This document shows, piece by piece, positions 184 through 46,996 of a stretch of DNA of 46,996 nt (position 1 is the first letter of the stretch; each line of letters starts with the position of its first letter). The notes under the pieces were generated by a model. It was not told where the DNA came from. It searched no databases and saw nothing but the letters and a program-made list of their open reading frames with translations. This DNA comes from Immundisolibacter sp. GTDB lineage: Bacteria; Pseudomonadota; Gammaproteobacteria; Immundisolibacterales; Immundisolibacteraceae. Where the stretch lies: assembly GCF_014359565.1 (NCBI RefSeq), contig NZ_JACIZD010000018.1, forward strand, positions 1 through 46,996, read 5' to 3'. Both the position numbers and the translations under genes were made by a program.

Positions 184-999
184 TCAGCCGGAGAACGTTC
201 CCCCAGGGGGAGGAGGAGCGTCAAGACGTAAGCGCTTCCCTTGATCGAGGCACAGGGTTTCGACGGCGGCGCCGATGTCGTCGGCCAGCCGGCCGCCCGC
301 GGCCAGCCGCATGTCGTCCGCCGGCCGGTACTTGCCGGTACGCACCAGGATGCCGCCGAGGCCGGCGGCGAGCGCGCCGTTGACGTCGGCTTCGACGTCG
401 TCACCGATCATGACCGCCTCGTCCGGGCTGCAGCCGAGCGGACGCAGCGCTGCCGCGAACAGGGCCGGTGCCGGCTTGCCCAGCAGTTCCGCGCTGACCC
501 CGGCCGCATATTCCAGCGCCGCGACGAACGGTCCGGCGTCCAGCGACAGTCCGTCCGCTTCCTTGAAATAGCGGTTGCGACCCAACGCCAGCAGCGGCGC
601 GCCGGCCATCAGCAGTCGAAACGCCTGATTGAGGCCGGCGTAGCTGAAGTGATCCCCGGCATCGCCCACCACCACGGCATTGGGTTGGTGCAGATCGAGC
701 CCGTCGAAGTCCGGTGTGAGGCCAGGATGGATCAGCAGCAGCGGGCGCAGGCCGCGTTCGAGCAGCACCGTGCGCGCAGCGCTGGCCGGGGTCAGCAGCT
801 CGTCAGTGGCCACATCCAGGCCCAGGCGCGCCAGTTCCAGCAGCAGCGCGGCGCGACTCTGGCGCGTGGTGTTGGTGACGAAACGCAGCGCCAGGCCGCT
901 GGCGCGCAGCCGGGCCAGGGCATGCTGCGCGCCGGGTAGCAGGCGCGTGCCCTCGTAGAACACGCCGCCCAGGTCCAGCAGTACGGTACGCAGCTTCAT
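184..999 (-). CDS. HAD-IIA family phosphatase (LHPP/TIGR01458-like)
   Basis: A HAD-superfamily hydrolase of about 271 residues, expected to hydrolyse a phosphate ester or phosphoramide in the cytoplasm. Motif I is LLDLGGVFYEG, with nucleophile Asp near residue 9. The second Asp of the usual DxD is a Gly, as I recall for the LHPP branch, where that position is not acidic. Motif II is VTNTT (about 41-45), the Lys is in GKPAP (about 175) and motif IV is IGDDVEAD (about 198-205). Both GTG (1002) and ATG (999) can start the gene. GGAGG lies 8 bases before the ATG, so ATG is preferred. It follows the cbb3 cluster on the same strand after a 75-base gap. The substrate cannot be read from sequence. 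Confidence 0.85.
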   Translation of the reverse strand: MKLRTVLLDLGGVFYEGTRLLPGAQHALARLRASGLALRFVTNTTRQSRAALLLELARLGLDVATDELLTPASAARTVLLERGLRPLLLIHPGLTPDFDGLDLHQPNAVVVGDAGDHFSYAGLNQAFRLLMAGAPLLALGRNRYFKEADGLSLDAGPFVAALEYAAGVSAELLGKPAPALFAAALRPLGCSPDEAVMIGDDVEADVNGALAAGLGGILVRTGKYRPADDMRLAAGGRLADDIGAAVETLCLDQGKRLRLDAPPPPGGTFSG

Positions 1000-1074
1000 C
1001 ACGCAGGCCTCCGGCCAGCCCGGGCTGGCAGCGCGGGTTCCGCCCGCTGCGGCCTCCTTCTTCCCGATTCGATT

Positions 1075-1809
1075 CTAGTGGTGGTGACCGGTCGTGTGTG
1101 GCGCCGGCGGCGGCCCATCCGGATGGACATGGCCGGCATGGGGCAGGGCGCCGAGCACCGTCCACAGGCCGAAGCCCACCAGCAGGGCGCCGCTCAGGCG
1201 CCGTCCACGGCTGCCGCGCAGGTGGCGCAGCAGCCCGGCTGCGGTACCGCCGGCCAGCAGGATCGCCGGCAGCGTGCCAAGGCCGAAGCCGGCCATGACC
1301 AGGGCGCCGTTGCCCGGGCTGCCGCTGGCCAGCGCCAGGGCCAGCATGCTGTACACCAGGCCGCATGGCAGCCAGCCCCACAGCGCGCCGACCGCCAGCG
1401 CCGCCAGCGGTCCGCGCGGCGGCAGCAGGCCGCCTAGGGCCGGCGTCAGGCGCGTCCACAGGCGGGCACCCAGGGCTTCGATTCGCAGCAGGCCGCGCCA
1501 GCGCAGGGCGAGCGTCAGACCCACCGCCACCAGCAGCGCGCCGAACACGATCCGCAGGGCCAGTCCCAGCCGCAGCAGGTCCAGGCCCCGGCCGAGCAGC
1601 GCGCCGCCGCCGCCGGCCAGCGCGCCGGCCAGGCTGTAGCTCAGCACCCGGCCGGTGCTCAGCAGCAGGGCGGTCAGCGGCGCCGGTCCGCGGCCGGCGC
1701 CGGCCAGTGCGGCGCTGATGCCGCCGCACATGGCCAGGCAGTGGCCGCTGCCGGCCAGACCCGCCAGCAGCGCCGCGGCGAAACCGAGTTCAGGGCCGGG
1801 GCTGATCAT
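1075..1809 (-). CDS. Sulfite exporter TauE/SafE-type membrane protein of the cbb3 cluster
   Basis: A polytopic inner-membrane protein of 244 residues of the family found next to ccoS in many cbb3 oxidase clusters, where a role in copper supply or oxidase maturation is suspected. The N-terminal helix carries the family signature GSGHCLAMCGG (about residues 20-30), with a Cys-containing CxxxC element. About six hydrophobic segments follow. A second Cys motif (GWLPCGLVYS) lies near the middle. The C-terminus is His-rich (HAGHVHPDG, ending TTGHHH), which could bind metal. The ATG at 1809 overlaps the end of ccoS by 20 bases, indicating translational coupling. The name TauE/SafE is a family label; sulfite export is not implied. 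Confidence 0.85.
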   Translation of the reverse strand: MISPGPELGFAAALLAGLAGSGHCLAMCGGISAALAGAGRGPAPLTALLLSTGRVLSYSLAGALAGGGGALLGRGLDLLRLGLALRIVFGALLVAVGLTLALRWRGLLRIEALGARLWTRLTPALGGLLPPRGPLAALAVGALWGWLPCGLVYSMLALALASGSPGNGALVMAGFGLGTLPAILLAGGTAAGLLRHLRGSRGRRLSGALLVGFGLWTVLGALPHAGHVHPDGPPPAPHTTGHHH

Positions 1810-1978
1810 CGTTCGGTGGCCCGGATCGGGGTGGCTGGGTCTCGTCGTCGTGCAGGATGCGCCACGCCGGGCTGTCCAGATCATCGAACTGGCCGCTGCG
1901 CATGGCCCAGAAGAACACCGCCACGGCGATGCCCACCAGCAGCAGGGTAACCGGAACCAGGAAGAACAGGCTTTCCAT
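1790..1978 (-). CDS. ccoS: cbb3-type cytochrome oxidase assembly protein CcoS
   Basis: A 62-residue single-pass membrane protein needed for insertion of heme and copper cofactors into cbb3 oxidase in known systems. The N-terminal helix (about residues 4-26) is followed by the family hallmark FFWAMRSGQFDDLDSPAWRI. The tail is short, acidic and proline-rich. Length and motif match CcoS well. It starts 9 bases after the ccoI stop and overlaps the TauE-type gene, so it belongs to the same transcript. Confidence 0.93.
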   Translation of the reverse strand: MESLFFLVPVTLLLVGIAVAVFFWAMRSGQFDDLDSPAWRILHDDETQPPRSGPPNDDQPRP

Positions 1979-1987
1979 CGGGCGCGG

Positions 1988-4426
1988 CTAGGCCAGCCGG
2001 GGCTCGGCCTGTGCGAGCGTGTTTGCGCGCGGTGAGCGCAGCAGGCGCAGGCTGTTGCCGACCACCAGTGCCGAACTGGCGGACATGCCAAGCGCCGCCA
2101 GCCAGGGCGGCACCAGGCCGGCGGCCGCCAGCGGGATGGCGAGCAGGTTGTAGACCGCCGCCCAGGCGAGGTTCTGGCGCACCACGGCCAGCGTGCGCCG
2201 GGCGGTGTCGATGCCGTCCAGCAGTGGTGCCAGACGCTCGCCCAGCAGCAGCAGATCGGCTTGCGAGTGCGCCAGCGCGGCGCCGCTGGCCAGCGCCACC
2301 GATACGTCCGCGCCGGCCAGTATCGGCGCGTCGTTGACACCGTCGCCGACCATCAGCACCACCTCGCCGCGCTGCTGGCGGGCGCGGATGGCGGCCAGTT
2401 TCTGCTGCGGCGTCTGGCGCGCCTGCCAGTCGCGCACGCCAAGGCGCCCGGCCACGGCCGCCACGGCGGGCGCGGCATCGCCGCTCGAAATGGCCGGCGC
2501 CAGCCCGCGCCGGGCGAGCGCAGCCAGTGTGTCGGCCGCGTCGGTGCGCAGCGGATCGCTGAGCAGGAACAGCGCCACCAGCCGCTGGCCGTCGCCCAGA
2601 CCCACCCAACTGCCGGCGCCGTGCTCGCGTTCCAGCGCGTCGACGGCGGCTGTCTGTCCCGGGCCACCGGCGAACTCGGGCGTGCCCAGGTGCCAGGTCC
2701 GGCCGTCCACCTGGCCACGCACGCCGCCGGCCGTCACCGGCTCCACCTGCGCGGCGGTGAGCCCGCCGGCGTGGGGCAGAAAGGCGCACGCGTAGGGATG
2801 GCTCGAACCGACTTCCAGCGCCGCGGCGACGGCCAGGTGCTGCTCGATCGGCGTGCCGTCCAGGCTGCGGCTGGCGGCGATTTGCGGCCGGCCGGCGGTG
2901 AGTGTGCCGGTCTTGTCGAGCAGCACGCTGCGCACGCGCGTCAGGTTTTCGAGCGCCGCGCCGCGGGTGACCAGCAAGCCGCGCCGCGCCAGGCCGGCAG
3001 CGGCGGCAGCGAAGGCCGTAGGCGTGGCCAGCGCCAGCGCGCAGGGGCAGGACACCACCAGTACCGCCAGCGTGTTGGCCAGCCAGCGCGTCGGTTCGAC
3101 CTGCCACCAGTACTGGCCGGTTGCCGCAGCCGCCAGCAAAACCAGCCCGATGAAGCCGCTCGCCAAACGGTCGGCGAGCAGCGCCAGCGGCGGCCGGTCG
3201 GCCTGTGCGCGCTGCAGCAGGCGGGCGATCTGCGACACCTGCGTGGCCGTGCCGACGCGCTGCAGTTCCACCGTCACCGGTGGCCCGAGGTTGACGCTGC
3301 CGCCGATCAACGCCTCGCCGGCCGTGCGCCGCCGCGGCTCGGACTCGCCGGTCAGCAGAGCCTCATCGACCTGCGTGGCGCCTTCGAGCAGCAGCCCGTC
3401 GGCCGGGATCACCTCGCCGCTGCCGACCAGCACCCGGTCGCCGGGCGCCAGTTCGCTCACCGCCACCGGCGTCGGACCGTCGGCGCCCAGGCGCAGCACG
3501 CTGGCCGGCAGCATGGCCGCCAGTGCCTCGCCGACGCTGCGCACGCGGCCGCGGGCGTCGGCCTCGAACCAGCGGCTCACCGACAGGAAGAACACGAACA
3601 TGACCACCGAGTCGAAGTACACCTCGGCGCCGCCCGTCAGGGTGATCCAAACGCTGGCGCCGCCGGCCAGGGTGAGCGCAATCGCCACCGGCAGGTCCAT
3701 GCCCGGCCGGCCGTGGCGCAGGCCGCGCCAGGCACCCAGAAAGAACGGCGTGCCGGCATACAGCAGCACCGGCAGCGCCACCAGCATGCTGATCAGGCGC
3801 AGGAAGTCGCGCATGGCCGGCTCCAGCGTGTCGCCGGCCAGGTAAAAGGCGAAGGCGAAGCTCGACACCTGCATCATGCCAAGGCCGGCCACCAGCAGCC
3901 GCTTGAGCGCGCTGTGGCGCTCGCGCGTGGCGGCGGCGCGGGCGTCGGCGGCAATGGGGTGCGGCCGGTAGCCGAGCGCGGCCAGCGTCCCCAGCAGTTC
4001 GGACAACTTGAGCTCGGCCGGGCGCCAGGCGAGCTGCACGCGGCCGGTGGCGGGGCTCACGCGCACCTCGCAGACGCCCGGCAGGCGCATGAGCTGGCTT
4101 TCGATCAGCCAAGCACAGGCCGCGCAGCGCAGGCCCTCGACCACGAAGCCGGCCTCGGCGCGCTCGGCCGAGACCTGATGCACGAAGGTGGCCTGCGCCT
4201 GCGGGCGGTCGAAGGCGGTCCATGCGTCGGCAGCAGCGGGCTCGGCGGGGCGCAGCGCCGGGGCGGTGCGAAAGCGGTAGTAGTCGGCATGGCCGCTGCT
4301 CAGGATCAGCTGCGCCACGGCCCGGCAGCCAGGGCAGCACACCGGTCGCGGCGCGCCATCGACGGTGACGGTCAAATCCAGGCCCGGCGGCACCGGCTCG
4401 CTGCAGTGAAAGCAGGCGAGGCTCAC
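1988..4426 (-). CDS. ccoI: Copper-translocating P1B-type ATPase CcoI (FixI)
   Basis: An 812-residue heavy-metal ATPase that exports copper from the cytoplasm for the binuclear centre of the cbb3 oxidase. The N-terminus has a Cys-rich metal-binding module (CFHC at 5-8 and CCPGC at 30-34), followed by an HMA domain with CAAC at 101-104. The transmembrane CPC motif is at 460-462, TGES at 359-362, the phosphorylation motif DKTGT at 504-508, the SHP motif follows, and GDGVNDAP lies in the hinge region. About eight membrane helices are visible. It overlaps ccoH by four bases (ATGA). All catalytic motifs are intact. It fits CcoI/FixI rather than a detoxifying CopA because of its cluster and N-terminal module. 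Confidence 0.96.
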   Translation of the reverse strand: MSLACFHCSEPVPPGLDLTVTVDGAPRPVCCPGCRAVAQLILSSGHADYYRFRTAPALRPAEPAAADAWTAFDRPQAQATFVHQVSAERAEAGFVVEGLRCAACAWLIESQLMRLPGVCEVRVSPATGRVQLAWRPAELKLSELLGTLAALGYRPHPIAADARAAATRERHSALKRLLVAGLGMMQVSSFAFAFYLAGDTLEPAMRDFLRLISMLVALPVLLYAGTPFFLGAWRGLRHGRPGMDLPVAIALTLAGGASVWITLTGGAEVYFDSVVMFVFFLSVSRWFEADARGRVRSVGEALAAMLPASVLRLGADGPTPVAVSELAPGDRVLVGSGEVIPADGLLLEGATQVDEALLTGESEPRRRTAGEALIGGSVNLGPPVTVELQRVGTATQVSQIARLLQRAQADRPPLALLADRLASGFIGLVLLAAAATGQYWWQVEPTRWLANTLAVLVVSCPCALALATPTAFAAAAAGLARRGLLVTRGAALENLTRVRSVLLDKTGTLTAGRPQIAASRSLDGTPIEQHLAVAAALEVGSSHPYACAFLPHAGGLTAAQVEPVTAGGVRGQVDGRTWHLGTPEFAGGPGQTAAVDALEREHGAGSWVGLGDGQRLVALFLLSDPLRTDAADTLAALARRGLAPAISSGDAAPAVAAVAGRLGVRDWQARQTPQQKLAAIRARQQRGEVVLMVGDGVNDAPILAGADVSVALASGAALAHSQADLLLLGERLAPLLDGIDTARRTLAVVRQNLAWAAVYNLLAIPLAAAGLVPPWLAALGMSASSALVVGNSLRLLRSPRANTLAQAEPRLA

Positions 4427-4929
4427 CGCGGCGCCAGTTGCAGCTCGCCGGCGTTTGCCGGCAGCTCGCCGCGCAGGCGCCAGCCTTGATCCGGCGATGC
4501 GATTTCCACGTGATGGCGGATCGCATCGAGCCGGCCCAGATTGCCGGTGTAGCGGTCATCGTCTCCGGGAGTGAGGCGGATTTGCCGGTCGCCGGTGGCG
4601 TCGGTCGGGTGAATGAGCCTCAGTTCGACGGCCTGCGCCGGTACGCCGCGGATGCTCAGTTCCACCGTACCGCTGGGGGCATCGACCCGCAGCGTGGCCG
4701 TGACACCCAGCGCAAGGGCCCGCCGGTCGCGTGACTGGTCGAGGTCGAAGGCGCGGCCGATGCGGGCGTAATCGTCGACCACCAGCGAATCGGCGTTGCG
4801 CACGGCGATCGCCACCGTCAGCAGGCCACCGATGACGGCCGCGATGGGTGGGGCTGCCACCAGCCAGAACCAGCGGTTGCGGTACCAGGGCGTCGGTCCG
4901 ATCGCGCTGGCAGCCGGGCGCTCAGTCAT
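4423..4929 (-). CDS. ccoH: cbb3 oxidase assembly protein CcoH (FixH family)
   Basis: A 168-residue membrane-anchored protein, FixH/CcoH family, which associates with cbb3 assembly intermediates. One transmembrane helix (about residues 18-40, after PWYRNRWFW) is followed by the conserved segment SLVVDDYARIGRAFDLDQ and a periplasmic beta-rich domain. The open frame extends further upstream, but the ATG at 4929 (MTERPAAS) is chosen: it overlaps the end of ccoG by eight bases and gives the family length. The stop overlaps the ccoI start. Confidence 0.9.
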   Translation of the reverse strand: MTERPAASAIGPTPWYRNRWFWLVAAPPIAAVIGGLLTVAIAVRNADSLVVDDYARIGRAFDLDQSRDRRALALGVTATLRVDAPSGTVELSIRGVPAQAVELRLIHPTDATGDRQIRLTPGDDDRYTGNLGRLDAIRHHVEIASPDQGWRLRGELPANAGELQLAPR

Positions 4930-6301
4930 CTTCCACCGGCCCCAGGAAGCGCACCTCATGCTGGGCCGATACGCCGCTGGCACCCGTCACCGTCAGGGTG
5001 AGCGTGCTCACCCGCCGGTGGATGGCGTCCTCGGGTACGCGGATGCGGGTCGGCACCACGGCCACGCCGCCGGGCGGCAGTTCGAATTCTGGCGGATCGG
5101 TCTCGATCACCGCTCCCGGCAGGCCGGCGATGGCTGCCCGGTAGCGCTGGCTGACGGCGGATTTGTTGACCACCTTGAGCGTGTAGACGTTCTCGATCTG
5201 GTCGTCGCCGACCTCCCGGTACAGCCGGCCGCGGTCGGCGATCAGGTCCACGTTCAGCGGCGTGCGTAGCGCCACGGCAGTGCCAAGGCCCACCAGCAGG
5301 GCAGTCAGCAGCAGCCCGTAGATGACGATGCGCGGGCGCAGCACGTGCGTCTTGCCGCCCTCGATGGCCGCTTCGGTCGCATAGCGGATCAGGCCGCGCG
5401 GGTAGCCGACGCGGTCCATGACCGAGTCGCAGGCATCGATGCAGGCGGCGCAGCCGATGCATTCGTATTGCAGGCCATCGCGGATGTCGATGCCGGTCGG
5501 GCAGACCTGCACGCACAGCGTGCAGTCCACGCAGTCGCCCAGGCCGCGCTGGCGCGGATCGACGCCGCGCGGCCGGCCGCCGCGTGGCTCGCCGCGCTTC
5601 TCGTCGTAGGTGATGATCAGCGTGTCCTTGTCGAACATGGCGCTCTGGAAGCGCGCGTAGGGACACATGTAAATGCACACATTCTCGCGCAGGAAGCCGG
5701 CGTTGCCGTAGGTGGCGAAGCCATAGAACAGGCCCCAGAACAGCTCCCAGCCGCCCAGGTTGAACTGCGTCAGTTCCTGCCACAGCTCGGTGCGCGGGGT
5801 GAAGAAGCTGACGAAGGTAAAACCGGTGAACAGGGAAAAGGCGATCCACAGCGTGTGCTTGGCGGTCTTGCGCAGGACCTTCTCGGTCGTCCACGGACCC
5901 TTGTCGAGCTTCATGCGCCGGGCGCGGTCGCCCTCCACCCAGCGCTCCATCCACAGGAAGGTCTCCGTCCACACCGTCTGCGGGCAGGCATAGCCGCACC
6001 ACAGGCGGCCGGCCATGGCGGTAAAAAAGAACAGCGTCAGCGCGGCGCAGATCAGCAGCAGGGTCAGGAAAAAGAAATCCTGCGGCAGGAACAGCAGGCC
6101 GAAGACGTGGAACTGGCGTGCCGGCAGGTCGAACAGCACCGCCTGGCGGCCGTCCCAGGACAGCCACGGCAGGCCATAGAACAGCCCCAGCAGGGCCAGC
6201 ACGGCGAGTTTGCGCAGGCGCTGGAAGCGGCCGTCGATCTCGCGCGGGTAAGCCTTGGGGCGGGAGGCGTAGAACGCTTCCGCGGCGGCGGGTTCAGGCA
6301 T
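4922..6301 (-). CDS. ccoG: cbb3 oxidase accessory protein CcoG, polyferredoxin with two 4Fe-4S motifs
   Basis: A 459-residue membrane iron-sulfur protein (RdxA/FixG family). In characterised bacteria CcoG reduces Cu(II) to Cu(I) for oxidase assembly. Five or six hydrophobic helices lie in the N-terminal half. CGYACPQTVW (102-111) is the family motif. Two ferredoxin motifs follow, with Cys 257/260/263/267 and Cys 281/284/287/291. One more helix and an Ig-like C-terminal domain complete the protein. The start at 6301 overlaps the end of the small upstream membrane gene by eight bases, consistent with tight coupling. Confidence 0.95.
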   Translation of the reverse strand: MPEPAAAEAFYASRPKAYPREIDGRFQRLRKLAVLALLGLFYGLPWLSWDGRQAVLFDLPARQFHVFGLLFLPQDFFFLTLLLICAALTLFFFTAMAGRLWCGYACPQTVWTETFLWMERWVEGDRARRMKLDKGPWTTEKVLRKTAKHTLWIAFSLFTGFTFVSFFTPRTELWQELTQFNLGGWELFWGLFYGFATYGNAGFLRENVCIYMCPYARFQSAMFDKDTLIITYDEKRGEPRGGRPRGVDPRQRGLGDCVDCTLCVQVCPTGIDIRDGLQYECIGCAACIDACDSVMDRVGYPRGLIRYATEAAIEGGKTHVLRPRIVIYGLLLTALLVGLGTAVALRTPLNVDLIADRGRLYREVGDDQIENVYTLKVVNKSAVSQRYRAAIAGLPGAVIETDPPEFELPPGGVAVVPTRIRVPEDAIHRRVSTLTLTVTGASGVSAQHEVRFLGPVEDD

Positions 6302-6599
6302 GCGGCGATTTGACCTTCTGTTTGGGCGGTTCGAGCAGCACCACGGTGGTGAAGCTCGACAGGGCGGTCACCGTCCAGAACATGAAAAAGCCGACCGTGT
6401 AGCCGACTTCACGGCTGATCTGCCAGTCCGGAAAGCTCGCCAGGCGCAGGCCCTCCGGATCGACATTGGCAAAGAACACCGCGGTCGCCACTGCCGCGGT
6501 CAGGAACGACGGCCACAGCACGGCGCCCAGCCGGTGCAGCCAGCCGTGCGGGCGCAGGTGCTCGGCGTCGACGACGAAGTTCTGGTCAGGGCTGTTCAT
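6294..6599 (-). CDS. Small conserved membrane protein of the cbb3 cluster (unnamed)
   Basis: A 101-residue protein with two predicted transmembrane helices (about residues 29-46 and 67-90) separated by a loop ending ISREVGYTVG. It has no cofactor motif, heme-binding CxxCH or Cys pair. It lies between ccoP and ccoG and overlaps both (14 and 8 bases), so it is part of the operon. Its position suggests an accessory or assembly role for the oxidase, but I know no assigned function. The reading frame is supported by the overlaps and by the hydrophobic profile. Confidence 0.85.
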   Translation of the reverse strand: MNSPDQNFVVDAEHLRPHGWLHRLGAVLWPSFLTAAVATAVFFANVDPEGLRLASFPDWQISREVGYTVGFFMFWTVTALSSFTTVVLLEPPKQKVKSPHA

Positions 6600-7479
6600 G
6601 CGACAGGCTATAGACGTAGGCCGCCAGCACGTGGATGCGCTCGGCGCCGAGCAGGTCTTTCTGGGCCGGCATCACGCCCTGGCGACCGTCGCGGATGCTG
6701 GTCTGGATGATCTGCTCGCTGCCGCCGTACAGCCAGTAATCGTCCGTGAGATCCGGTGCGCCGAGCATGGGATTGCCCTTGCCCTCGGGCCCATGGCAGG
6801 CGATGCAGAAGGTCTGGTATTTCTCCTGGCCGGCCGCGATCAGTGCCGGGTCGCCCGCGTGACCGCCGAGGCTGCGTACATAGGCGGCGACGGCCTTCAC
6901 CCCATCCTCGCCCAGTGTCGCGCCCCACGGCATCATCATGGCCATGCGGCCCTGGGTGATGGTCTGCTCGATCTGCTCCGGGCTGCCGCCCCAGTGCCAG
7001 ATGTTGTCGGCCAGGTTCGGAAAGCCGCGGCTGCCGTGGCCGTCGGCGCCGTGGCAGACCGCGCAGTTGGTGACGAACAAGCGCCGGCCGGTGGCCATGG
7101 CGGCCGGATCCTTGGCCAATTCGGGAATGGGCAGGGCGGCGTATTTGGCGAACAGCGGCGCTACATCGCGCTCGACCGCTGCGACTTCGGCCTCGTAGGC
7201 ACCGACCTGGGTCCAGCCGAGCAGGCCCTTGAAGTTGCCAAGGCCCGGGTAGAGCAGCAGATAGCCCAGCGCGAACACGATGGTGATATAGAACAGACCC
7301 AGCCACCAGCGCGGCATGGGGTTGTTGTATTCCTTCAGGCCGTCCCACTCGTGACCGGTGGTGTCGGAGGCGGCAGCCTCGCCGGGGCGTTTTTTCGCCG
7401 TCCAGCGGATCAGCCACAGGCAGGCCAGGATGTTGGCCAGCGACAACACGGTGACATACCAGCTCCAGGCGCTGCTCAT
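6586..7479 (-). CDS. ccoP: cbb3-type cytochrome c oxidase subunit III CcoP (diheme cytochrome c)
   Basis: A 297-residue membrane-anchored diheme cytochrome c that passes electrons from soluble cytochrome c to CcoO and CcoN. Two N-terminal hydrophobic segments (about 8-26 and 58-78) flank a cytoplasmic loop with HEWDGLKEYNNPMPRWW, the typical CcoP signature. Heme sites are CAVCH (139-143) and CIACH (225-229). The ATG at 7479 has a strong AAGGAGG site upstream, which settles the start although the frame is open further 5'. The ATG lies within the last codons of ccoQ, overlapping by four bases. Confidence 0.96.
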   Translation of the reverse strand: MSSAWSWYVTVLSLANILACLWLIRWTAKKRPGEAAASDTTGHEWDGLKEYNNPMPRWWLGLFYITIVFALGYLLLYPGLGNFKGLLGWTQVGAYEAEVAAVERDVAPLFAKYAALPIPELAKDPAAMATGRRLFVTNCAVCHGADGHGSRGFPNLADNIWHWGGSPEQIEQTITQGRMAMMMPWGATLGEDGVKAVAAYVRSLGGHAGDPALIAAGQEKYQTFCIACHGPEGKGNPMLGAPDLTDDYWLYGGSEQIIQTSIRDGRQGVMPAQKDLLGAERIHVLAAYVYSLSHEQP

Positions 7480-44129: not shown

Positions 44130-44318
44130 ATGCCAGCCAAATCCAAATCCCAGCAAATGGCCGCCGGCGCAGCGCTTGCGGCCAAGCGCGGCAAAAAGAA
44201 GGTCGCTGACCTGAAAGGCTCATCCAAGTCCATGTATAAATCCATGAGCGAAGGAGAGCTTCATGACATGGCGGCAACAAAGCAGAAGGGCAAGCCCGAT
44301 CATGCATCGAAGTCGTGA
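44130..44318 (+). CDS. DUF3008 family small basic protein
   Basis: A 62-residue Lys-rich protein. MPAKSKSQQMAAGAALAAKR, LKGSSKSMYKSMSEGELHDM and ATKQKGKPDHASKS match the DUF3008 pattern throughout. No membrane segment or enzyme motif is visible. Such proteins are often seen near stress genes, and here the gene follows katE by 88 bases. The function is unknown. Confidence 0.88.
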   Translation: MPAKSKSQQMAAGAALAAKRGKKKVADLKGSSKSMYKSMSEGELHDMAATKQKGKPDHASKS

Positions 44319-44452: not shown

Positions 44453-44612
44453 CTACGGGCTGGCCGGCGCGCGGCGCCTGGCGCGGGAACTCGGGCCGGG
44501 CCACACCATCGTCACGCTGCTGTGCGACTACGGCCAGCGCTACCAGAACAAGCTGTGGAACCCGGCCTTTCTGCGTGAGAAAGGCCTGCCGACGCCCGAC
44601 TGGCTGGAGTGA
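44451..44612 (+). pseudogene. Cysteine synthase (CysK/CysM family) C-terminal remnant
   Basis: The frame from 44451 to the TGA at 44612 encodes 53 residues including LARELGPGHTIVTLLCDYGQ, RYQNKLWNPAFLR and KGLPTPDWLE, the typical end of a PLP-dependent cysteine synthase. The remainder of the gene, about 250 residues including the PLP-lysine, is absent. Homology stops where the GTTGGGG repeat begins, so the gene was probably cut there. No start codon belongs to it, so it is non-functional. Confidence 0.85.
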
Positions 44613-44684
44613 GGCAGCCGCGGCCAAGCCGGCCCGGGGAGCCCGGATAGCCGAATTAAAGATTGCGAGCCATCGGCGAACTGC

Positions 44685-44782
44685 AGGAGCCCGGCTTCGC
44701 CGGGCGATCATCGCGCAGAAAAGCTGCGTTACAAGGCTATTTCCGGATAGCGGGCGCTGGAAAATCCAGGATGGATTTATTC
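44685..44782 (+). repeat. Dispersed repeat, copy B
   Basis: It begins AGGAGCCCGGCTTCGCCGGG, continues with GCGATCATCG, then CGCAGAAAAGCTGCG and ends AAAATCCAGGATGGATTTAT. It aligns to the reverse complement of copy A (9805-9928) throughout, apart from a deletion of about 28 bases. The two terminal blocks are the best conserved. No open frame. Confidence 0.75.
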
Positions 44783-44850
44783 AGTTTCCTTCAAGCGCGT
44801 GCCGCCCCAGCCAGAACGGCGTGGGTGGATCGCCGCCAAGCGCAGCGCTT

Positions 44851-44906: not shown

Positions 44907-45030
44907 AGGCTTATTGCGCGCGAGCCGTAGCACCGCAGCGCGCGGCGAATGTGTATGCTTCTTTTCTTTATAGTGCTCGCCGCGCTTGATGCGTGGTCGC
45001 GCCCCCCTGAGTCCGAGCGTCAGGCTCCAC

Positions 45031-46110
45031 ATGGCAGATGTACTGCATCCGCGCATCCGATGCGAACTTGACGACGGCCAAACAGTCGTAGTGACCCCTG
45101 TGGCATTCCAGCCGCTGGGGGTGATTGACCTCTGGAAGATTCAGGCCGACCGCTCTGCAGGGCTTCAGTTCCGATTCCGCGGAAGGGGTGCCAAGTTTGA
45201 CGGCGTTAAACAAGAGGGACAGCTAGACGTCTCGATGACACTGCACTTAACTATGGCACCAACGCCATACGCGTTGGTGGCAGGTGGCTGGCTACCTTTG
45301 CCCTTCGTATTGCCTCAACGGTTTCTGCTTGATCGCAATGTTGTCAGCACCCTTCGTCGAATCCGTGAGCACGGCGCCAGGGATGGAGATGCGACGTTCG
45401 AATGGTGGACAAATTTCTTCCAGGGTGGTGCTGCCATTTTCAACCCTCTCCCGTATGCATACGAGGGTGCACGCAGGCGTATACCAACCAAGGAAGAATT
45501 CGAACAGTCATTTTTGGAGGGCAGGCGAGAACTGGTCCAAGCGTTTCCTGACGCTACCATCATCGCGTTCCACGAAGCGCATGCAGAAGCCGCATACGCA
45601 CAGCTTGAGGCTCTTGTCGTTCGAGGAGAGCGCGACGCCCGCTTTTTGTTGGATGCGGTGCCTCTGATTGTCGAACGAGTATCTCGAAGGTCAGAGGCTA
45701 AAGTACGGGACAAAATCCTTGAGCTTTCGCTCAAGCACGGAGTGATTCCCAACGCGCTAATTTGCCTAGCCATATTTTCTGCCCTCTTTGATGACGTGCA
45801 TGGTTCCGTACCATCGATCGGAAGGCGCTTGGTTAAGCCGAAGGCGAATTACTCGTCAGAAGATGCATACAATGTGATTAGCGACCTTCGCCATGTCGAG
45901 TTGGCTGCCCTGAGCGGAGCAGTAGTCGACGACGGTCAGTTTGCACTTTGTACCGCTGACCGCGCTCTCGCCGAATTCTGGAGTGCACTAGCAGTACGCG
46001 GCGAGAGCACCGTCGATGCGCTACTCAATTTGCACTACTCCCTCGGCACTGAATTTATGCCAAGACTCCAGCAATCCGAGATAAATGAACTCGCAGCCCT
46101 ACTCCGGTGA
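45031..46110 (+). CDS. Hypothetical protein with possible PIN-like fold
   Basis: A 359-residue protein that I do not recognise. RFLLDRNVVSTLRRI (about 98-112) resembles the start of a PIN-like nuclease domain with its first acidic residue. ALSGAVVDDGQFALCTADRALAEFW near the C-terminus could hold the remaining acids, but this is weak. There is no signal peptide or membrane helix. The ATG at 45031 is preferred over a TTG/ATG about 45 bases upstream. Codon use is less GC-rich than in the genes to its left, in line with recent acquisition. Confidence 0.75.
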   Translation: MADVLHPRIRCELDDGQTVVVTPVAFQPLGVIDLWKIQADRSAGLQFRFRGRGAKFDGVKQEGQLDVSMTLHLTMAPTPYALVAGGWLPLPFVLPQRFLLDRNVVSTLRRIREHGARDGDATFEWWTNFFQGGAAIFNPLPYAYEGARRRIPTKEEFEQSFLEGRRELVQAFPDATIIAFHEAHAEAAYAQLEALVVRGERDARFLLDAVPLIVERVSRRSEAKVRDKILELSLKHGVIPNALICLAIFSALFDDVHGSVPSIGRRLVKPKANYSSEDAYNVISDLRHVELAALSGAVVDDGQFALCTADRALAEFWSALAVRGESTVDALLNLHYSLGTEFMPRLQQSEINELAALLR

Positions 46111-46123
46111 GCGCGGTACCCAG

Positions 46124-46215
46124 GTAGGGTGGGCAAAGCGAAGCGTGCCCACGCAGCGCGGCCGGTGATGGCGCCGACAACGTGGGCACGGCCTGACGGC
46201 CTTTGCCCACCCTAC
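46124..46215. repeat. Large interspersed palindromic repeat
   Basis: The left arm starts GTAGGGTGGGCAAAG and has CGTGCCCACG. The right arm ends CTTTGCCCACCCTAC and has CGTGGGCACG. The arms are complementary over about 25 positions with a few mismatches, separated by a GC-rich centre. It lies between two convergent genes (45031-46110 and 46256-46879). The arms resemble repeats widespread in proteobacteria. Confidence 0.8.
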
Positions 46216-46255
46216 GACCTCTTACCGGGGATCCGGTTGACTGCAATGCTAGCAG

Positions 46256-46879
46256 TCATGACATTAGCACTCCGTCGGGGCGCAACATCTGCCAATATGC
46301 CTGAAGCTTTCGTTCAAAGGTCGCGAACGCGCCTTCGAGCACTCCGAGGACAAGATATTCGGCATCGAGAAAATCATGTTCGATCTTCTCGTACCAACAG
46401 TGAGTCAGCGCCGAAGCCTCAGGTACTCTTCCACGGTAACGAAAGAAGACGTCCAGGGACATGAGAAGCTGAACCTGTACCCAGCGGAATAGTGCCCATT
46501 CGGGAGTAACAATTTCAGCAGGAGGTAGTGGTTCCTCTCCGGGCGATGGTTCAAGGGCGCCGTAGAACTTCAAGACTGAGGCGGTATCGGTAGCGATGAT
46601 GCGGATTGCTTCATTCTTGGCGCTTTCCCTATCGGAGTCACTGCCGCTCAACAATTCAGGAAAGACCTCGGCGATAACCTGCGCCCGCTGGATAAAGGAG
46701 GCAACGTTTCCACGGGTCTTGCAGTTTTCTTCATCAAGGGCTTCATCGGCGACTTCTGGGAATACGTATTTCCCAGTTGCAAGATCGGGATGAAACCGAT
46801 AGCGAATGTCTATGATGTTTTCGGAAGGCTTTCCACTCGGAATGTGCGAGTCGATTTCCCTCCGGAGGAGGGCTTGGAT
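46256..46879 (-). pseudogene. Hypothetical gene truncated at its 5' end by an IS30-family element
   Basis: The reading frame is open from 46879, immediately after the transposase stop, to the stop at 46256: 207 codons. No ATG, GTG or TTG occurs in the first 75 codons. The first possible start is a TTG at 46654, leaving a 132-residue protein. The upstream 75 codons read as ordinary protein, with REIDSHIPSGKPSENIID, RYRFHPDLATGKYVFPEV and NCKTRGNVASFIQRAQ, so they are probably real. The gene appears to have lost its start to the insertion. DAEYLVLGVLEGAFATFERKL may be the end of a PIN-like domain, but that is tentative. Confidence 0.65.
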
Positions 46880-46996
46880 TCAAGAATCAAGTGCAACACG
46901 ATTTGAGAAATTGGCGATTTCTTCGGCCATGGCTTCGTCCGGTGTTCTCCAGTCCAAGGTTTTTCGAGGACGGCCGTTCAGAAGCCGGGCGATGTC
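46880..46996 (-). CDS. IS30-family transposase, C-terminal end (element runs off window)
   Basis: The last 38 codons read DIARLLNGRPRKTLDWRTPD, then EAMAEEIANFSNRVALDS and TGA at 46880. LNxRPRKTLxxxTPxE is the C-terminal signature of IS30 transposases. The N-terminal helix-turn-helix and DDE catalytic residues lie beyond the window. The stop is directly followed in frame by the truncated hypothetical gene, so the element's terminal inverted repeat should lie at about 46860-46900. Confidence 0.88.
   Translation of the reverse strand, partial: DIARLLNGRPRKTLDWRTPDEAMAEEIANFSNRVALDS

Follow-up and report, generated by a model that had tools for sequence, protein, structure and literature searches.

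The window analysed here, the whole stretch of 46,996 nucleotides, carries an intact open reading frame on the forward strand at 45031-46110, which runs from ATG to TGA over 359 codons and encodes a protein of 359 amino acids, as the original prediction had reported. The same frame stays open in the 5' direction as far as a TTG at 44986. The gene, the parts of its product discussed below and the elements on its 3' side are as follows:

45031-46110, forward strand: gene of an unnamed, probably PIN-like family, intact, coding for a 359-residue two-domain protein (reading frame, family, conservation and model).
45031-45300, forward strand: beta domain at the N-terminus (residues 1-90), with a weak Sm/Lsm resemblance over residues 3-71 and an LVxGGWLP motif at its end.
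45304-46065, forward strand: probable PIN-like alpha/beta domain, residues 92-345 (models and VIA-align).
45325-45348, forward strand: LLDRNVVS, residues 99-106, end of the first putative PIN strand, with invariant D101.
45463-45465, forward strand: invariant E145, second acid, last residue of the helix that follows the second putative PIN strand.
45466-45834, forward strand: residues 146-268, a long region between the second and third acids that is mostly helical (model).
45835-45837, forward strand: invariant K269 (alignment).
45862-45885, forward strand: DAYNVISD, a helix that carries the invariant residues N281 and D285, the latter being the third acid (alignment and model).
45949-45969, forward strand: CTADRAL, residues 307-313, last core strand followed by invariant T308 and D310, the fourth acid.
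46256-46871, reverse strand: orphan reading frame, unrelated to the PIN-like family, 5' end truncated by an insertion sequence.
46872-46996, reverse strand: 3' end of this insertion sequence, with eight further near-identical matches in the genome, several of them at contig ends; the contig ends inside it.

The 0.7 kb or so upstream of the gene holds a cysteine-synthase-like fragment and a dispersed repeat, and the nearest plausible gene on the same strand lies at 44130-44318 (presumably DUF3008-like). The fragment, at 44480-44613, is by eye what we take to be the C-terminal part of a cysteine synthase. The repeat at 44664-44798 is extragenic; parts of the sequence upstream of the gene recur at more than 40 places in the genome with 76-95% identity, nearly all of these matches falling within the repeat. 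Just 3' of the gene, at 46124-46215, a perfect inverted repeat of 15 nt (GTAGGGTGGGCAAAG / CTTTGCCCACCCTAC) was observed, which resembles a common type of small repeat element. From 45000 to 46750 the GC content of individual windows is 0.53-0.58 (highest 0.576), lower than the 0.58-0.67 seen between 40000 and 44000. Scans for promoters and terminators returned nothing above shuffled sequences. No VapB-like antitoxin gene was recognised adjoining 45031-46110, and neither MkoA nor MkoB adjoins it. Since no partner lies nearby, the copy in the window, if it works, acts alone or with a distant gene.

The original prediction had joined this gene with a truncated neighbour, whose C-terminus (DAEYLVLGVL...ATFERKL) was said to have a similar look, into a possible convergent pair of nuclease-like proteins. 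The truncated reading frame indeed exists at 46256-46871 on the reverse strand; an insertion sequence that we take to be IS30-like interrupts its 5' end at about 46872. The similar look, on the other hand, was not borne out: comparison with the family gave no HMM match even with the filters off and only chance matches by BLASTP (best E 0.29). This orphan frame matched nothing in Pfam or in the plasmid collection and has relatives in none of 298 other genomes. The proposal of a convergent nuclease pair was rejected on these grounds.

Searches of the Pfam, PADLOC and NCBIfam models gave no match for the 45031-46110 protein itself, and its family is named by no profile in these libraries. No paper describing the family was found in the literature; it may be listed in an existing classification of PIN domains. 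A search with a profile made from an alignment of ten members detected the family on 27 genome contigs and five viral contigs. By tblastn, relatives were present on 11 of 72,556 plasmid records (25.8-34.9% identity at the best places), and no relative was matched in 50,697 phage records. The closest relative, in a betaproteobacterial MAG (locus L012), is 37% identical. The dN/dS ratio was 0.066-0.261 in 19 of 23 close pairs (60-98.5% identity; dS was not computable for the remaining four), which points to purifying selection between close members. The family is divergent but real, and the frame at 45031-46110 is a real gene, because relatives recur on plasmids and on genome and viral contigs and dN/dS is low. 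It is also rare, patchy and accessory, as it was found in one of eight genomes of the host order, namely the window's own (none of the seven others), and in three of 398 genomes drawn from the phylum (the window's own, G307 and G394; two of the 397 others). In the tree the window protein groups with L012 (99/94) and then joins a set of five rows (97/92) with L003, L013 and L014, among whose members are a Desulfomonile and an Eisenbacteria MAG; long branches are seen for several rows. At one locus (L033, 7920-9035) the gene is split into two frames and appears to have decayed.

We aligned 38 members, the window protein and 37 relatives, leaving out L016, L020, L023, L027 and L042 as near-copies, L009 and L033 as split or short, and the second hit of L038. 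All 38 share eight invariant residues, P89, D101, E145, K269, N281, D285, T308 and D310, and the window copy retains every one of them; an LVxGGWLP motif is conserved at the end of the N-terminal domain. The PIN signature consists of the acids D-E-D-D in that order, with LLDxN at the first acid and TxD at the last, and the quartet D101, E145, D285 and D310 follows this order. The LLDRNVVS and CTADRAL segments that had first drawn attention as reminiscent of PIN-like nucleases are thus noteworthy beyond chance, D101, T308 and D310 being among the invariant residues, and the search for conserved acids in homologues, proposed with that reading, yielded all four.

AlphaFold2 gave confident models both for the full-length protein (pLDDT 86.0, pTM 0.87, 28 sequences) and for residues 92-345 alone (pLDDT 86.2, pTM 0.85, 27 sequences). 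The full-length model contains two domains, one of strands and a single helix at residues 9-89, and one of strands and helices at residues 97-345 with a long helical stretch from 154 to 268. The helices within residues 146-268 are modelled at 154-171, 182-213, 219-235, 243-252 and 263-268. D101 comes directly after strand 97-100, and right after a strand in the domain-alone model too. E145 is the final residue of helix 140-145, itself following strand 136-138, and it ends the corresponding helix in the domain-alone model too. In both models, D285 lies within the long helix that precedes the last core strand (276-298 in the full-length model), and D310 is found, in agreement between the two, two or three residues past this last strand (305-308 in the full-length model). 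In the DSSP strings of both models, the acids are therefore placed at the end of strand 1, in the helix after strand 2, in the helix that leads into the last core strand, and at the end of that strand, which are the strand and helix positions of the acids in PIN domains.

Comparison of the models with known structures was less clear-cut. Foldseek against the PDB and viral models returned no match at E <= 0.001, either for the full-length protein or for the domain alone. With VIA-align, whose own note states that a Z below 8 can arise by chance, which weakens the cyclodipeptide synthase and TyrRS rows and the PIN rows alike, the full-length model matched Sm/Lsm proteins over residues 3-71 in many rows, with Z reaching 4.8 at best (51-52 residues, rmsd 3.5); the helix of the modelled N-terminal domain comes after two strands, not at its start. 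Exosome chains were matched over the second domain (best rows Z 4.4-4.5, 123-128 residues, 14-16% identity), presumably Rrp44 at residues of its PIN domain, and the same list holds cyclodipeptide synthases (Z 4.8) and TyrRS (Z 3.8). Of the 50 rows listed for the domain alone, 12 with Z 2.5-4.2 are titled VapC or VapBC, PIN domain or protein-only RNase P, and we take about seven more to be PIN proteins. The best row is nevertheless a cyclodipeptide synthase (9j61_C, Z 5.7, rmsd 4.4, 149 residues), which together with a TyrRS entry of Z 4.4 (157 residues) ranks above every PIN row; a second TyrRS entry has Z 4.2.

Sequence profiles were also compared. The PF01850 profile did not match the window protein at E 10, and a scan of 28 members against Pfam hit no PIN family at E 1, and PF01850 in no case, except for one match to DUF5615 (E 0.14), presumably a PIN-like family. 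Sequence searches of solved structures gave nothing significant, either with the window protein (best E 0.31) or in two further searches (best E 3.5 and 0.25). HHalign was run against 20 PF01850 members, those that passed a filter for an early D-T/A/S/M-N/S/D motif after 28 of 30 loci had been submitted, a choice which favours a good match at the first motif; PIN_8 and PIN_12 were left out as they had too few members. The probability was 1.6-2.6% in local mode and 15% in global mode for the insert-free core. For the domain, it was the LLDxN motif that drove the local score, which was 18.55 against a maximum of 15.38 in column shuffles (0 of 100 reached it). For the insert-free core, whose better score is biased as the core was picked from the motifs, the local score was 18.13 against a shuffle maximum of 17.78 and the global score 21.68 against 10.15 (0 of 100 in each case). 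When the insert was retained, one of the 100 shuffles scored higher than the true global alignment, and the global alignment to the PF01850 members fails to line up all four acids. With no PF01850 match, weak HHalign values and insignificant hits to solved structures, sequence-profile proof of a PIN domain was not reached; weak as they are, these tests lean towards PIN.

Taken together, a PIN domain in the 45031-46110 protein is probable, mainly because the invariant acids sit at the correct positions of the fold. The original prediction, partly supported as a whole, held up in its PIN-like reading, with an invariant acidic cluster at PIN positions of a confident model and PIN proteins recurring among the weak fold matches; the fold assignment itself stops short of proof, since the structural matches are weak, a cyclodipeptide synthase scores higher and profile support, without a Pfam PIN match, is weak.

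The original prediction had also allowed for a defence or mobile-element system, and the link to defence gained support from the gene neighbourhoods of relatives. Defence-type genes were found beside the family gene in 12 of 36 non-redundant loci, a raw count without matched background; the remaining 24 have no recognised defence gene among their annotated neighbours, of which only selected ones were annotated singly. At L002 (RefSeq genes), mkoA (762-4202), mkoB (4199-5938) and the family gene (5935-7080) follow one another with consecutive overlaps of 4 bp, and the profile matches are strong (MkoA E 1.9e-221, MkoB E 4.6e-91). L025 shows the same layout, with the family gene third after mkoA-mkoB (MkoB E 3.8e-91), as does its near-copy L027. 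An AbiJ_NTD4 gene lies directly upstream at L021, where IetA and IetS are also upstream, and at L024, where GajB and GajA (Gabija) are downstream. At L006 a weak Abi_C match is directly upstream, and Shedu and IetS are downstream. An Xre-MbcA antitoxin gene and a RES gene directly precede the family gene at L022, and L032 has a homologous gene. Other loci have hsdR, a methylase and hsdS of a type I restriction-modification (R-M) system (L003), an Eco57I/N6 methylase (L028) or an HNH gene (L010) near the family gene, or a HEC-01A-like ATPase and DUF4276 downstream (L013); a neighbour at L008 is annotated as a restriction endonuclease, without recognition by PADLOC. A MiaB-like radical SAM gene precedes the nearest relative, L012, and the Sphingopyxis plasmid copies L004 and L011 are near lasso-peptide and DUF1810 genes.

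Two further features of these neighbourhoods were observed. A small gene of 169-175 amino acids, whose product to the eye has one apparent membrane segment, is common to the downstream side of L011, L022, L023, L026 and L032 (64-79% identity, excluding near-copy pairs); in the Sphingomonadales relatives it comes directly after the family gene (L022 8876-9385, L032 3099-3608, L026 9020-9547, L011 6975-7496). A UvrD-type helicase with a Top1 zinc ribbon and a protein of 377-473 amino acids without assignment lie convergent to the family gene at L002 (7087-11284) and L025 (9084-12993), and are present at L009 as well.

A role as core Mokosh component was considered and rejected: the two genomes with near full-length MkoB in the draw of 398 (G263 and G081) are not among the three that bear the family. 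The MkoB and family draws, which have the same labels and size (398), were taken as one set, and the 176 MkoB matches in it, mostly partial and weak, were not read as Mokosh.

With moderate confidence, we favour the view that the gene encodes a PIN-like, metal-dependent nuclease, most likely an RNase, with a small beta domain, and that this mobile accessory gene, which stands alone in this window, serves in anti-phage defence or abortive infection. D101, E145, D285 and D310 would bind Mg2+ or Mn2+ and cleave RNA endonucleolytically, with N281, T308 and K269 assisting the acid cluster, while the beta domain (possibly RNA-binding and Sm-like) and the helical insert may select a partner or the substrate. 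The gene, an accessory one spread by horizontal transfer, would contribute to defence against phages or to abortive infection, by itself in the window and, in several relatives, probably cotranscribed with other defence genes.

Several other explanations were weighed against this one. The PIN-like superfamily includes DNA nucleases, and the neighbours of the relatives include type I R-M, HNH, Shedu, Gabija and MkoB with its PLD domain, mostly DNA-acting or nuclease systems; a FEN-like or structure-specific PIN-like enzyme acting on phage or plasmid DNA might suit such company. We consider this unlikely, as the PIN structures named in the VIA-align lists are the exosome PIN domain, VapC and protein-only RNase P, all of them RNases, and the N-terminal domain weakly resembles Sm/Lsm RNA-binding folds. 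No FEN-like row occurs among the VIA-align matches listed, an absence that carries little weight, and the same holds for other PIN families missing from these lists. Likewise, it seems improbable that the protein is a non-nuclease of Rossmann-like fold, akin for example to a cyclodipeptide synthase or a class I tRNA synthetase. The top VIA-align rows of the domain (9j61_C, then TyrRS) and the lack of significant Foldseek matches are what such a protein might give, but Z values of this size are common by chance, and the invariant set combines four acids with N, T and K, whereas the key residues of cyclodipeptide synthases and tRNA synthetases are different.

Two more explanations concern the biological role. 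A VapC-like toxin whose antitoxin has been lost or is encoded elsewhere could account for the order of the PIN motifs and for the Xre-MbcA and RES pair directly upstream at L022. The protein is nevertheless 359 amino acids long, against at most 262 for PF01850 open frames above the curated cut-off in related genomes, no VapB-like partner occurs in the window, and the partners of the relatives vary, with no single conserved antitoxin; a toxin of this type is thus very unlikely. The position of L012 after the MiaB-like gene and of the Sphingopyxis plasmid copies near lasso-peptide and DUF1810 genes could instead suggest a housekeeping or stress RNA-processing enzyme that hitch-hikes in defence islands. 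Its very patchy occurrence, in three of the 398 phylum genomes including its own and in none of the seven others of the order, and its presence on 11 plasmid records make such an enzyme an improbable candidate.

Beyond the favoured reading, a PIN-like RNase used in defence, a wider role can be proposed, which we regard as possible but doubtful: members could form a new family of modular PIN-like RNases with an Sm-like RNA-binding domain, a common accessory effector that plugs into unrelated anti-phage systems (Mokosh, AbiJ-like, RES-Xre, R-M) and is also able to work as one-gene defence. If the favoured reading is right, a nuclease family recurrent beside known defence systems would have been missed by current libraries, and its third-gene position after mkoA-mkoB at L002 and L025 would make its effect on Mokosh or AbiJ protection, or protection by the gene alone, simple to test.

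Among known systems, VapC-type PIN RNases (PF01850) have the same order of acids, with a first motif resembling LLDxN and TxD as the last, and several VapC structures are among the VIA-align rows. The family differs from them in its additional N-terminal beta domain and long helical insert, in having no PF01850 match and, for the window copy, in the lack of a VapB partner; in addition, the window protein has R after the first Asp where the compared PIN proteins have T or S. The N-terminal PIN domain of Rrp44/Dis3 is similar to the extent of the VIA-align match (Z 4.4-4.5 over 123-128 residues), but Rrp44 carries an RNB module, which is missing from the window protein, a bacterial accessory gene product only 14-16% identical to it. 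Protein-only RNase P of the HARP type, a PIN fold with a helical insertion, accounts for four entries among the VIA-align rows listed for the domain (Z 3.2-4.0); the Z values are weak, there is no Pfam match, and the family, a rare accessory gene, is presumably not a core enzyme of tRNA processing. AbiJ/HEPN proteins are related to the family by position, through the AbiJ_NTD4 genes directly upstream at L021 and L024 and the weak Abi_C match at L006, whereas the family proteins themselves have no HEPN or AbiJ match. In the portion of PMC3710099 concerned, AbiJ fusions are described and no PIN partner is mentioned. As for type I Mokosh (MkoA-MkoB), the family is not a core part of it and the window gene has neither component next to it, but the association in relatives is close, the family gene overlapping mkoB by 4 bp at L002 and following it at L025 and L027.
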